Origin: Panopea generosa
Taxonomy: Eukaryota; Mollusca; Bivalvia; Adapedonta; Hiatellidae
Reading direction: 5' to 3'
DNA: 64,000 nucleotides
NCBI GenBank assembly: GCA_029582155.1
Contig: CM055902.1
Location: 17,491,511 to 17,555,510, forward strand
Part shown: in pieces, positions 2,011-62,577 of the stretch
Layout: the number at the start of each line of letters is the position of its first letter
Numbering within the stretch: position 1 is the first letter of the stretch
Notes under the pieces: model-generated
Told to the model about the DNA's origin: nothing
The model's database searches: none
The model's input: the letters and a program-made list of their open reading frames with translations, nothing else
Program-made: the position numbers and the translations under genes

Positions 2011-50165
<48,155 letters not shown>

Positions 50166-53192: not shown

Positions 53193-54330
53193 ATGAATAT
53201 ATCTTCGAAAGAGAGATATTGCTATTCAAGTTCTAACTTAAGAGCACCACAGAGTTTGCTTAAAACAGTTCCTAACTATTTCATTAGTATATCTGGAGTA
53301 CAACTTTTACTGCTTACATGTGGACAAAGTGCTAACTGTTCCATTAGTATAAGCGGAACACATCATTCATTGCTTTCAGACAGACAAGATGATAATTAAT
53401 GATTTTGCATATTTGAAGACAACTTTTATTGCATCAAGCTGGGCAAAGTACTAACTATTACATTAGCTTATTTGGAACACAACATCCACTGCTACAACGC
53501 AGATAAAGTGCTAACTTTCCATTAGCCTATTTGGAACACAACATCCACTGCTACCACGCAGATAAAGTGCTAACTATTCCATTAGCCTATTTGGAACAAA
53601 ACATCCACTGCTACCATGCAGATAAAGTGCTAACTATTCCATTAGCCTATTTGGTACACAACATCCACTGCTACAATGCAGATAAAGTGCTAACTATTCC
53701 ATTAGCCTATTTGGAACACAACACCCACTGCTACCACGCAGATAAAGTGCTAACTATTCCATTAGCCTATTTGGAACACAACATCCATTGCTACCACGCA
53801 GATAACATGGTAACTATTTCATTAGCCTATTTGAAACACAACATTCATTGCTACCATGCAGATAACATGGTAACTATTCCATTAGCCTATTTGGAACTCA
53901 ACATTCATTGCTACCATACAGACAACATGGTAACTATTCCATTAGCCTATTTGGAACACAACATTCATTGCTACCATACAGATAACATGGTAACTATTCC
54001 ATTATCCTATTTGGAACACAACATTCATTGCTACCACGCAGATAACATGGTAACTATTCCATTAGCCTATTTGGAACACAACATCCATTGCTACCATACA
54101 GACAACATGGTAACTATTCCATTAGCCTATTTGGAACACAACATTCATTGCTACCATACAGATAACATGGTAACTATTCCATTATCCTATTTGGAACACA
54201 ACATCCATTGCTACCATACAGACAACATGGTAACTATTCCATTAGCCTATTTGGAACACAACATTCATTGCTACCATACAGACAACATGGTAACTATTCT
54301 ATTTGCATATTTCAAGAACAAGACTCAATT
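53193..54330. repeat. 60-bp satellite array
   Basis: Unit TATTCCATTAGCCTATTTGG + AACACAACATTCATTGCTAC + CATACAGATAACATGGTAAC, about 19 copies. Early units carry GATAAAGTGCTAAC, later ones GATAACATGGTAAC. Open in one frame for 282 codons (53531-54379) because 60 is a multiple of 3. Confidence 0.95.
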
Positions 54331-57213: not shown

Positions 57214-57441
57214 CTATTTCATCTCGTAGCTTTGTTTGGAATTCCATCTAAATTGAATGAACGAAAATATGAAGCATAAAACATAAATTCCTGCCGCAAT
57301 GAAACAGTTCAGTGCCACTTGCTCATACTTCTCATGGATATAAGACATTGTATAGTTCCTGTCCTGCCAATCTTTTTCAACAAACGGAATATCCTCAAAC
57401 AGGGCTGGACTGTGAAGTCTGTAGAATACACCCATTAAAGC
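57214..57441 (-). CDS. RNASEK: RNASEK exon 2
   Basis: 228 nt including TAG. Acceptor ATATATTTCAG, phase 0. It encodes the end of helix 1, the acidic lumenal loop (FEDIPFVEKDW plus a longer NYTMSYIHEK segment with one N-glycosylation sequon, NYT), helix 2 and a short cytosolic tail ending EMK. Several AATAAA matches lie downstream on this strand (first at 57092-57097), so the 3' UTR end is uncertain. Confidence 0.95.
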   Translation of the reverse strand, partial: ALMGVFYRLHSPALFEDIPFVEKDWQDRNYTMSYIHEKYEQVALNCFIAAGIYVLCFIFSFIQFRWNSKQSYEMK

Positions 57442-60400
57442 CTGAAATATATTTAAAAAGTAATCTTAATTTAACTGATTCAGTCTTCACAATTATTTTT
57501 TTGTTACTAAGTGGGAAAAAATCTTTACAACATTTACGAGCCTTTCAATAAATCCAGGATCTGAGAGTTTGATCATCTCTCACAGCTATTTGTGATGTCC
57601 TTGAACAAGACACTCTTTCCGAATGTGCTAAGTACTGGTTCTATCAAAGAAGATGTTGCATCTGATTGGTGCATAAGTTGTAATAACTTGTTTCACAATC
57701 AAAGTATAATAAATAAGTTTAAAAAAATATTTAGAAATGGCTTCTCGCATGAAGGTAAAATATTTTTATATACAGGAAACATCTTATATTGTAGTTCATG
57801 CGAGATATTATGCCATTATGTCAAACATCTTTGTTAAAATGTCCCTTCCACACACCCTCAATATTTGACTAAACTACAATTTCCCCATGATGTGCTTCCA
57901 TGCATCATTTACATAGATCTACACTACATTATACATCAACATATTCACACTTGACTACTATGCGATGGGTGGTGCTAGGTCAAGAAAAAATAATGAAAGG
58001 ATAGACAGTAAGAAGAGGTTGGAAAGTTAAAAGGTAGAAATTAGAATAAGGTGGTTTCAGCTACTTTTTTGCCGATTCAACCCATAACTTTCTGGTTACC
58101 ATGGCCAACACAGCAATATGAATGACTAGAGACTACTTGTTGCCGGATCCCTACAAAATAGAATGAGAGTGGTGACAGTCCCTGCTTGAAGGATACCCAG
58201 TCAGTCGTATCAGCAACATTGGCAGACAGACTGTTCCATACTGTAGTTTTTTGTGAAAAGAATGAATATCTGTAGTATGATGCAGATGTAGATGGCTGGC
58301 AGAATTTCCTCGAGTGGGAGGATCTGGTATGGCCCTGGGGGATTTACAGTGAAGTCGGTAAATGACAATCTCGGTAAAAAGGATTTATATAGTAAATGGA
58401 TTGGTGACCTCGGTAAAAAGGCAATTATATAGTACAATAGTGAATATCACACCTACCGTGGATATGTTTTGTCACCTTCACTCGCCTCATTAATGAGGTG
58501 TGATAAAACATCGGCAGTTTGGATACTGATCTTACGGTCATATGGGAAATGATGTTTACGTTGTATTTGCCAATAAACAATATATGTGTATTCTAAGAGT
58601 TTGAATTTGCAAATATGTAGATCATATACAGTTCTTAAATGTATTTTGATGCTGAGTATATCGCCGTCTTCATTACAATTACAAAATAACCAACCTCAGT
58701 TTCATTACCGATTATGACTAAAACCTGGCATTAGCTTGGATGCTGATCACACGGTGCCATAATTAAAAACATGTATTGAACACTTTAGGGTATTACTAGA
58801 TTTTTTATTGGATTAGTTTTAAGAAGATAAAAAATCTGAGAGAGTGAATGGTTGGACATGAATGCAAATGAATTACATGGATATATTGAACTTTAACATA
58901 CTCAGTGACTCAGAATATTTTATTGTTCGAACGACTTGTTTAGAAAAAAAAGTATTTTGAAGAGAACGGTTTCATTGAAATGGTATTGCAGTTACTAGTT
59001 AAAGCAACGATTAGTCTGTGGTATGAATTTAAAAGAAGTCGGCATCATTAAAATGGTACATTGTCTACATTGTCTATCACACCTGTTGATTAAGGTGAGC
59101 TGTAATCTAATTAAAAAGATGATTCGCATACTTCTTTAACAAACTGATTAATTAATGCGTGCCATAGACGACAGTTTAAGACGAAGAGGGGACACGGAGC
59201 CTGTCATTCTTGATGAATCGCTTGCAGATCAGACGCCGACTGACGACATCACCGACGAAGCTCTCGTGACTCAGGAGATTCCCGATGAACCGCTTGCAGA
59301 CCAGCCGCCGATTGACGACATCACCGACGAATCCCCCGTGACTCAGGAGATTCCCGATGTTACGTTCAACTTGACGGGAAGACAGTTCCAGCAGACGAGA
59401 GCACCACTGGAGGATTCCTTGGCAGACCAGCCGCTGACTGATGACATCCCCGATAACGCTCCAGTCACGTATGAGATTGTGGAATCGGGGACAATCCGAG
59501 GGGCTCCCAAGCTTGTAAGCAGTGACGGCTACACATACACTCGAGGGGTGAGTTATTACTGCATCAATACTATATCTGCATTTTAAAGTAAGCCTACTAT
59601 TTGCGGCTGTGGTGAGTTAATCGGCATATTATCTGGATCCAAGCAAAAAAGCAGTAAATTTGAAAGAGACATGCTTTAAATTGATTATTAAAAAAAGACA
59701 TCGAATTACATATTGATTAATTTGTATAATTTGTATTTATATTATTTGTTTCAGGTCAAATCTGGGGATAAACGCTACTGGAGATGTGCCATCAGAAACA
59801 AGACCACAACATGTACAGCCTCTGTCAAGGAGTTCATGGGGATGTTCACGTCAGGGCTCAGCGGCCATGTCCACCCTGCAGATCCCGGTGCACGTAACAA
59901 GGTCAAGATCACACAGAAGGTGAGTTACGTGTAATATTACTTCTTTATCCACAAGACACAGATGCCCCCACTTCCGCTTTGTCATAAATTGCCCTATAAT
60001 ATATCCATATTTCAAGTTTCCGTAGTACAAACGGATAAAGGCAAATGGTTGATAAATTCCCATCATCTCTTATATCTACAAATGTAACATAACGATTCTT
60101 TTAATAAATGTTTATGCGAGTTCAGATATTTTTATATCTTGTAAGCGTATGAATAAATATAACAGTTTTAAGGATGTACTAATGTGTATCATTTTCTATC
60201 TTTCTACTTAGGTAAAAGAATGTGCCAAGGAGAGAAAGTTTGAGCCAGCGGCAGCCATCGTCGAGCGTGTGATGAAGGAACTGATATTGCCCGATGATGT
60301 AAATCTGCCCAAACCCGATCATCTGGCCCGAAATTCTCATGAAAACAAAGAGACTTATGTAATGTAAATATTAAGGATTTAGAGAATTTAATGAGTCATA

Positions 60401-61830
60401 GGACAGAGTCTAGGACTCGTGATGCGGCCCATCATTATTAACTGTTGATCTAATATTTGCTAAAGAAATATGATCCACATTACTGTTAATTAATTGTTTG
60501 TTAAATATTTGTGTGAAAATATCTAATGGTATTAAATGAATTAAAAAAAAAAAAAGTTTTCTTTTATTTATTCACACCACCCGTATTTGATGTAATAATT
60601 AATTTCTTTAATACAAAGTCACCTTTTCCGACTATTTTTTTATTACTCGGCATCTTTAAGTACGGATATTTAGCTGTGGCTAAATATCAAAAAAAAATTC
60701 CACACTGCGCGAGTTTTAGTCACACCCAAATTAGAGGTGACAACATTCGGCAATTGACAATGCATCCACCATGACAACGATTGGCGAAAGGTGTTAAAGT
60801 ATCCACCGTAGGTGTGACATTCACCATTGTACTATATAATTACCTTTTTACCGAGGTCACCAATCCATTTACTATATAAATCCTTTTTACCGAGATTGTC
60901 ATTTACCGACTTCACCGTCACCCCCCTGGGCTGGGGTGAGATACTGGCTGGCTTGGATTCACAAGGTCATTTGTGATCTTGAACATCATGGTCCAACATT
61001 CATTGTCTTTCACCCAGGTGGTCTATCATGGAGGGGACACTGCTAGTGTTGTGATATCTGTTAGTCACACATCTTGCAGCTCTCCTCTGTACCATCTGGT
61101 AGTTCCATGAGAGGTTCTGGTACATGTGAACTCCAAGGTACTTTGATGTAAAATCTGTTTTGAGTGTGTGGCCCTTCAAGTAGTACTCATCTATTGTAAT
61201 TGGTGTCCTCTTTCTGTGTACACATAGAATGCTGCACGCTCTGGGTGGTAGCTCACACTCCAGTGTTTCTACCATTCCACTAATTTATTCAGGTCATCCT
61301 GTAGAGTTTGACGGTCCTGTTTAGCGCGAATTTCACTGTGTACCAAGCAATTGTCTGCAAATAGTCTTATTATGGACGAGACCTATAGTGGTTAAGTTGT
61401 TGATGAAGATGAGGAACAGAATAAGTCCGAGGATACTTCCCTGAGGGACACCATTTATAATGGGTGCCAACTCAGATGTTGCCCTGTCAACATACATGCC
61501 CTGTGTGCAGGAAGGATAATTCTATTCAGAGTATGGACCCTGATGCCATAGTGGTGTAACTTGATGAGAAGACGACTGTTGTACAACGCCAGCAGTGGTC
61601 GCTTCAACGTAAGATCCAGATCCAGATCCAGAAAGATAAAAAGAAAAGTTGTTTGAAAATAGCGATGTGGAAAAAAAATTCCAATACAACGTCTTGTGAT
61701 TGAAGCTGTTTTAAGAGAACGAACTTGCTATATTTAATTGTAGAGTTCTTACCAACATTATAATCCCCCATATACTGAGCAATGTACAACACATTGACAG
61801 TTTCGGACCACATATTGGACAAATAGACAT
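57214..61830 (-). CDS. RNASEK: Ribonuclease kappa (V-ATPase-associated membrane protein), two exons
   Basis: Coding exons 61830-61753 (26 codons) and 57441-57214 (75 codons plus TAG), 101 residues in all; human RNASEK is about 98. RNase kappa is a small two-helix membrane protein associated with the V-ATPase and needed for endosomal acidification and uptake; the early claim of RNase activity gave the name (known family). Exon 1 begins MSICPICGPKLSMCC and runs into the first membrane helix (LLSIWGIIML), ending phase 0 at TTG/GTAAGA. Exon 2 (acceptor ATATATTTCAG) continues ALMGVFYRLHS, then FEDIPFVEKDW, YEQVALNCFIAAGIYVLC (second helix) and a basic tail. CGPKLS, EDIPF.EKD and YEQV..NCFIAAG are family hallmarks. 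The junction IIML/ALMG falls inside helix 1. The 4311-nt intron holds a LINE, a TIR element and a FLYWCH gene, all described separately. Confidence 0.93.
57545..57725 (+). mobile_element. SINE type C, head decayed
   Basis: GATCATCTCTCACAGC... TCCTTGAACAAGACACTCTT... GTTGTAATAACTTGTTTCAC, tail AATAAATAAGTTTAAAAAAA. In the RNASEK intron, about 100 bp from exon 2. Confidence 0.75.
58340..58465 (+). repeat. Left terminal inverted repeat
   Basis: Pairs with 60800-60923 in inverse orientation with only a few differences. Within it the block CTCGGTAAAAAGG occurs twice, 39 bp apart, so a transposase could have two adjacent binding sites per end, as in Mutator-type termini. Confidence 0.9.
59155..60367 (+). 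CDS. FLYWCH zinc-finger protein inside a TIR element, three exons
   Basis: Exons 59155-59547, 59755-59919 and 60212-60367, all phase 0, 238 codons. Donors are GGG/GTGAGT and AAG/GTGAGT; acceptors TTTCAG and CTTAG. Exon 1 encodes an acidic region with a repeated block, roughly (E/S)PLADQPP.DDITDE.PVTQEIPD, then GYTYTRG. Exon 2 completes a FLYWCH finger: a YWRC strand, two cysteines (RC and TC) and HVH as the metal ligands. Exon 3 encodes a helix (KECAKERKFEPAAAIVE) and LPKPDHLAR, a segment that follows FLYWCH fingers in many invertebrate, transposon-related proteins (known family). The usual downstream conserved part after LAR is missing, so the protein looks truncated. FLYWCH fingers bind DNA and also occur in Mutator-like transposases; no transposase catalytic core is visible here. 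The ATG is the first in frame; an upstream exon cannot be excluded. Confidence 0.78.
60800..60923 (-). repeat. Right terminal inverted repeat
   Basis: Inverse copy of 58340-58465, with the same doubled CTCGGTAAAAAGG block. The near identity of the two ends suggests a fairly recent insertion compared with the frameshifted LINE around it. Confidence 0.9.
61753..61830 (-). CDS. RNASEK: RNASEK exon 1
   Basis: 78 nt, phase 0 at its donor (TTG/GTAAGA). It encodes MSICPICGPKLSMCC followed by the first part of membrane helix 1. The CGPK motif close to the start is a family constant. Too short for an ORF scan; recognised by translating the minus strand upstream of exon 2. Promoter and 5' UTR should lie just above 61830 but I see no clear TATA box. 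Confidence 0.9.
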
Positions 61831-62153: not shown

Positions 62154-62577
62154 TAACACATATTTCTAATATATAATACATGCTTGGATGCATTGAATAA
62201 GAGTGACCTAATGCACCCGGACCCCCTCCAGCCTAACACTTCTTAAAAAAATGTGTGTAAAATGACTTGTGCGTTTTTTACGTATGTTTGAGACATAATT
62301 AAGCACATTTTATTGATTTATTTTATAAATGGAAATTTTTTTTTTTTTCAAAAAAGCTTCTGAAAACACATATTTCTAATATATAATACATGCTTGGATG
62401 CATTGAATAAGAGTGACCTAATGTACCCGGACCCCCTCCAGCCCAACACTTCTTAAAAAAATGTGTGTAAAATGACTTGTGCGTTTTTACGTATGTTTAA
62501 GACATAATTAAGCACATTTTATTGATTTATTTTACAAATGGAAAATTGTTTTTTTTTTAAAAAAGCCTCTGAAAATT
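62154..62577. repeat. 210-bp tandem duplication
   Basis: Two direct copies (from 62154 and 62366) of ACACATATTTCTAATATATA through a poly-T and AAAAAAGCYTCTGAAAA, about 95% alike by eye. Confidence 0.9.

Follow-up and report, generated by a model that had tools for sequence, protein, structure and literature searches.

How an intact, spliced frame for a FLYWCH zinc-finger protein comes to lie between the long terminal inverted repeats (TIRs) of a transposable element, inside the remains of a long interspersed nuclear element (LINE), inside an intron of RNASEK, is the question raised by a stretch of 64,000 nucleotides from the mollusc Panopea generosa (C9:17491511-17555510; hereafter the window). 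The original prediction described the innermost gene as a passenger DNA-binding gene that moves with the element. When a TIR element contains a spliced frame that is intact, it can be mistaken for the carrier of such a passenger, and it is the copies elsewhere in the genome, here 1.474 Gb in 39 contigs that served as the search space, that decide the matter. On their testimony the window copy is very probably an internally deleted, non-autonomous derivative of an element that joins FLYWCH to the transposase of a Mutator-like element (MULE), inserted in an old LINE of the RNASEK intron; its FLYWCH exons appear, from comparison with these copies, to be the 5' portion of the FLYWCH-MULE transposase gene that belongs to the family itself, truncated by deletion on both sides. 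The locus is a case of ordinary transposon biology, with no travelling passenger gene.

The evidence that carries this reading comes from relatives in which the same exons continue into a transposase. A DNA search with the FLYWCH region (query 59157-60368) returned 14 candidates, all of which were scored, with 17 matches between them, and for the four near-identical copies with matches extending into exon 3, namely C1, C14 (L032), C13 (L033), and C8 (L022), the match ends at query position 1178, which is window position 60334. At this point only the window departs, and four further places match solely the piece to the right of 60334; since four copies end there and four others begin there, the window joins two stretches that lie apart elsewhere, and no second copy of the junctions of the window gene was found among the 14 scored candidates. 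Beyond 60334 the frames of L022 and C1 read on through ...DHLARNANYHRR..., then into an intron and then into a MULE-like exon. A diverged element of 5.5 kb at C8:12785088-12790602 (L039, L048, and L049; 70-79% identity in the alignable parts) likewise carries a FLYWCH-type exon, a linker exon, and MULE exons, the latter with a Pfam MULE match above its cut-off (E 2.9e-9), and a piece retained by copy L024 matches the C-terminal part of its transposase. The ends of this element, about 220 bp long and 86.5% alike, are 76-79% identical to the window ends over 80-94 bp; no perfect target duplication was found around it, the best pair agreeing at 7 of 8 positions by eye. FLYWCH exons thus stand upstream of MULE-type exons in C1, in L022 (where exon 2 is partly lost), and in the diverged C8 element, and it is because these relatives have the same exons followed by MULE-type exons that the passenger reading is rejected. 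The proposed test for an autonomous relative with a MULE transposase led to the diverged C8 element and, among the copies examined, to no complete one with exactly these ends. As a separate observation, the GATTTACAG-type tip of the C8 element lies at the 3' side of its gene, the reverse of the arrangement in the window family.

In the window copy itself, the three exons (the third running over 60212-60367) are joined in frame by GT-AG introns into a protein of 237 amino acids, with a Pfam FLYWCH match above its cut-off (E 6.9e-7). The predicted spliced, three-exon, plus-strand frame is accordingly intact, but it is a truncated 5' part of a transposase gene and not a complete gene, and its start and stop are accidents of deletion junctions. 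The ATG at 59155 is immediately preceded by a jump from upstream parental DNA into mid-exon, and the L022 counterpart of the start methionine lies inside ...MEVDVSPMRAID..., whereas at the other end the last 10 residues (SHENKETYVM) are right subterminal DNA read through past 60334. Because the junctions share at most 1-2 bases, judged by eye, we claim no deletion mechanism. No MULE match was obtained when four other reading frames of the window element were compared with Pfam; the FLYWCH protein found nothing among phage records and viral contigs and only matches of E 0.29 and 0.39 among solved structures, and a 21-mer from the TIR had no match in viral contigs or prokaryote genomes. Exon 1 also holds a tandem repeat (59212-59359), whose in-frame 72-bp unit encodes acidic stretches of 24 residues, the third copy being weaker.

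The copy very probably descends from a parent element that encodes a transposase with a FLYWCH zinc finger at its front, with a PHD-like finger probably ahead of it, and a MULE DDE body. One deletion took the native start and the first exon, another took everything from the linker exon up to a region short of the right end, and the remainder between the ends happens to look like a three-exon FLYWCH gene. Mobilization of the remnant, if any, would depend on a transposase from other elements that recognizes the shared ends. The removed front part, as seen in L022, reads as a PHD-like finger spread over two exons, with Pfam matches to PF00628 (E 0.0012) and C1_2 (E 0.00077) that both fall below their cut-offs, and we regard a PHD-like finger ahead of FLYWCH in the parent transposase as probable on this ground. 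Two side observations concern the same copies. At L022:2370-3200 and L037:900-1560, a two-exon PHD-like finger (CIQC...CDGC...HRKC...WRCQAC) seems to precede FLYWCH, and at L022:5844-6550 there are frames past the MULE-like exon (VGDSNCLYRTVSLGAFG, NHFVPFV) that may resemble an OTU-type protease, for which they gave no Pfam match.

The family to which the window copy belongs is large and looks young. The element had been predicted to be about 2.6 kb long with inverted ends of about 125 bp, and both figures hold: it measures 2,583 bp, with TIRs of 124 bp each that are identical at 116 of 124 positions. A repeat search alone places the arms at 58338-58464 and 60800-60926, and comparison with other copies trims the element to 58341-60923. 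The extreme tips are unlike each other, with GATTTACAG at one end and GGGTGACGG at the other, and this is so in most of the copies seen. When the left end was compared with the whole genome, 278 first-look candidates were returned, and all of the 40 that were scored proved 99-100% identical over approximately 124 bases. From these 40 places we examined 21 copies (including the window; the C10 place is L003), together with C1 and three reached through loci of the FLYWCH search. The right arm was recognized in 20 of the 21 places, window included, the exception being L022, and perfect target duplications of 8-9 bp flank 17 of the 19 other two-armed copies; none was found for L016 and L020, in which the right tip is not recognizable. 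With the perfect 8-bp duplications of C1, L032, and L033, read from the printed flanks, the total comes to 20 of 22 other both-ended copies. The suspected MULE affiliation is borne out by these long TIRs, target duplications of 8-9 bp (the MULE criterion being 8-11 bp), and many genomic copies. The proposed whole-genome search with the terminus found other copies, mostly with perfect target duplications and a few with FLYWCH exons, and neither of the contrary outcomes named beforehand, namely no other copies or termini never around FLYWCH, occurred.

When placed on a composite map built from L022 and L024, all 23 copies considered (the window, 19 others, C1, L032, and L033) fit internal deletions of one longer parent. 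Their lengths range over 409-2,583 bp, and the fit leaves aside short pieces that could not be mapped, L003 385-520 for example. There are 18 arrangements among the 23, counted by hand from the map; one is common to five copies (L013, L014, L015, L021, and L026; 677-703 bp) and a second is shared by L032 and L033 (about 1.49 kb, with FLYWCH exons 2-3), and because the same type is found in copies at different places, both shared deletion types have probably multiplied themselves. L022 contains an additional piece of about 786 bp that is absent from the copies spanning that place. The whole of FLYWCH exon 2 is retained in 4 of 24 copies (the 23 mapped and L022), namely the window, C1, L032, and L033, a fraction that is not an unbiased count, as the last three were chosen via the FLYWCH search. 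At the level of sequence, the family looks young, recently active, and rich in shortened copies.

Several observations weigh against the reading of the window copy as a deletion derivative. The relatives are imperfect: the MULE-like exon of L022 on its own reaches only E 0.042, below the Pfam cut-off, FLYWCH exon 2 in that copy (165 nt in full) is missing its first 112 nt, and no right end of L022 was found within 14.1 kb; stops interrupt both the FLYWCH and the MULE-like exons of C1, the one in FLYWCH at codon 140; the FLYWCH part of the diverged C8 element alone gives E 0.012, again below the cut-off, and the exon limits of that element were judged by eye; and no complete copy with exactly the window ends was found among the copies examined. 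The target duplication of the window matches at 7 of 8 positions, unlike the perfect duplications around most other copies. Finally, the changes found only in the window lean toward synonymous ones, 4 against 2 (six in all, judged from the difference list), which would allow for a degree of constraint; given 523 non-synonymous and 158 synonymous sites, the probability of at most 2 non-synonymous changes in 6 is P = 0.029. The sample is small, comparison for four of the six changes was limited to two copies, and the lean may reflect the history of the parent before the deletion.

Selection is in any case not needed to explain why the frame is intact. The prediction had set this frame beside the ruined LINE and had offered two explanations, a younger element or a gene under selection; the first stands, but the second is superfluous, since the copies look very young and youth suffices: with scored ends that are 99-100% identical, the frame has not been exposed to decay for long. 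Neither are FLYWCH frames protected everywhere, as follows from the codon-140 stop of C1. In the proposed alignment of FLYWCH copies, the window differs from L022 at 6 codons synonymously and at 6 non-synonymously (569 nt), from C1 at 7 and 4 (681 nt), and from L032 and from L033 at 2 and 1 each (288 nt each), and these differences are too few to settle the question of selection on the frame.

Most likely, the truncated frame is without a function of its own. The alternative that survives best, and that we nevertheless consider improbable, is that it encodes a putative repressor comparable to KP of the P elements, a FLYWCH-only protein that would bind the ends and block the full transposase. 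Its three exons are open, its introns GT-AG, and its FLYWCH match above the cut-off; the native upstream sequence is joined directly to an in-frame ATG; the synonymous lean just described would fit; and, in the accessible part of PMC7776569, KP and the 66-kDa protein of P elements offer a precedent. The junctions, however, were seen in one copy only among the 14 scored candidates, so that there is no sign of spread or retention, and the six changes are few and possibly older than the deletion. In its fullest form, the proposal would be that by deletion an in-frame methionine came to adjoin the upstream region native to the element, which created a compact, spliced, FLYWCH-only, KP-like trans-repressor in an animal family of PHD-FLYWCH-MULE elements, which by analogy is conceivable and which we hold to be a long shot.

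The two remaining explanations fare far worse. MULEs are known to carry fragments of host genes (PMC5225508, in the part accessible), and the FLYWCH gene could on that model be a host gene captured between MULE ends, as in Pack-MULEs; this candidate is largely contradicted by the MULE-type exons that follow the same exons in L022, C1, and the diverged C8 element, and, as every one of the 17 matches of the FLYWCH search falls either in a copy that bears a family end at one side or both, or in the C8 relative, whose ends are related, we judge it highly improbable. Equally hard to credit is the domestication of the frame as a host gene kept by selection, for which the intact frame and the FLYWCH transcription factors derived from Mutator transposases (PMC10027918, in part) might speak, given that the ends are intact and near-identical to those at the 40 scored places, the marks of mobility and a target duplication are present, and the junctions were seen only in the window copy among the scored candidates, with start and stop both lying at them.

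Among known systems, the deletion derivative is most like the elements of the animal Phantom/Muta group. Phantom-type MULEs, in the accessible portions of PMC3169594, PMC5225508, and PMC6446971, combine FLYWCH with MULE in many transposases and have long TIRs, duplications of 8-10 bp, and many derivatives without a transposase; the likeness to Muta1 of Aedes aegypti and Tm1 of root-knot nematodes extends over the TIRs, duplication size, FLYWCH-MULE layout, and derivatives. The differences are the mollusc host, the PHD-like exon that seems to stand before FLYWCH, and the fact that the window copy keeps the FLYWCH part only. A table in PMC6446971, itself seen in excerpt, gives a PHD finger for Rehavkus and FLYWCH for other groups, and a PHD-FLYWCH-MULE layout is not named in the accessible portions of the literature on PHD finger, FLYWCH, and MULE transposases, which we offer as a lead and not as a claim of novelty. 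As in KP and other internally deleted P elements (PMC7776569, in part), the N-terminal DNA-binding part of the transposase is kept in a deleted copy, although the superfamily is another, the window deletion was seen in one copy, and a repressor role would here be by analogy. Pack-MULEs, too, enclose coding exons and no transposase core within MULE ends, but their exons come from a host gene, whereas those of the window copy come from the family's own transposase. As a young animal MULE family, these elements could serve to study the origin of deletion derivatives and the question whether truncated transposases repress.

The site of insertion gives the relative age. The flanks both read as LINE on the minus strand, with many stops, and because the RVT_1 match (E 0.088) is under its cut-off, the identity of the LINE is based mainly on motifs recognized by eye. 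When the element is omitted together with one copy of the target, a single minus-strand LINE frame is open over the site (...QASQYLTPAQGHTRSSHSRKFCQPSTS...), as expected from the prediction that the element splits the LINE and that its removal restores the reading, and the view that the element is younger than the LINE is supported. The target duplication had been given as CCCTGGG; a duplication is present, but it is not 7 bp long, CCCTGGG being the common part of an 8-bp pair (CCCTGGGG/CCCTGGGC) that is identical at 7 of 8 positions. As a control for chance, 18 of 22,780 pairs of nearby left-flank and right-flank 8-mers match at 7 or more of 8.

Table. Features of the nest, in window coordinates
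Feature	Position	Strand	Basis or remark
RNASEK last coding exon with stop	57214..57441	-	reads ALMGVFYRLHS...YEMK*
RNASEK intron holding the nest	57442..61752	-	splice sites read
Dead LINE, 3' side piece	58130..58332, far end approximate	-	open minus frame across restored site
Left target copy CCCTGGGG	58333..58340		boundary fixed from other copies
Internally deleted MULE-type element, 2,583 bp	58341..60923	+	bounds from comparison with other copies
Left terminal inverted repeat, GATTTACAGTGAAGTCGG...	58341..58464	+	124 bp
Deletion junction, left subterminal region	58598..58599		copy map
Deletion junction removing native start and PHD-like first exon, directly before ATG	59154..59155		copy map
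FLYWCH frame exon 1	59155..59547	+	starts at methionine internal to native frame; acidic 24-residue repeats
FLYWCH frame exon 2, zinc-finger part	59755..59919	+	Pfam FLYWCH
FLYWCH frame exon 3, native part, linker to transposase core	60212..60334	+	match to other copies
Deletion junction removing transposase core	60334..60335		copy map and FLYWCH DNA search
Read-through tail SHENKETYVM*	60335..60367	+	right subterminal sequence
Right terminal inverted repeat, ...CCGACTTCACCGTCACCC	60800..60923	-	124 bp
Right target copy CCCTGGGC	60924..60931		7/8 match to left copy
Dead LINE, 5' side piece (reverse transcriptase region)	60932..61620, far end approximate	-	RVT_1 E 0.088, weak; frame across site
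RNASEK exon 1, coding part	61753..61830	-	reads MSICPICGPKLSMCCTLLSIWGIIML; Pfam V-ATPase_su_f on joined protein

The outermost level of the nest is the host gene, in which exons 61830-61753 and 57441-57214 splice in frame on the minus strand; the joined two-exon protein matches Pfam V-ATPase_su_f (E 7.9e-11), and we take it to be RNASEK. With small corrections, the predicted nesting of FLYWCH exons, TIR element, and LINE in an intron of this gene is confirmed. Just upstream of RNASEK exon 1, at 62155-62575, a 210-bp unit is present twice (95% matches), and elsewhere in the window there are long minisatellite arrays at 15846-19321, 39593-42716, and 53452-54312, with units of 24, 50 to 52, and 60 bp.

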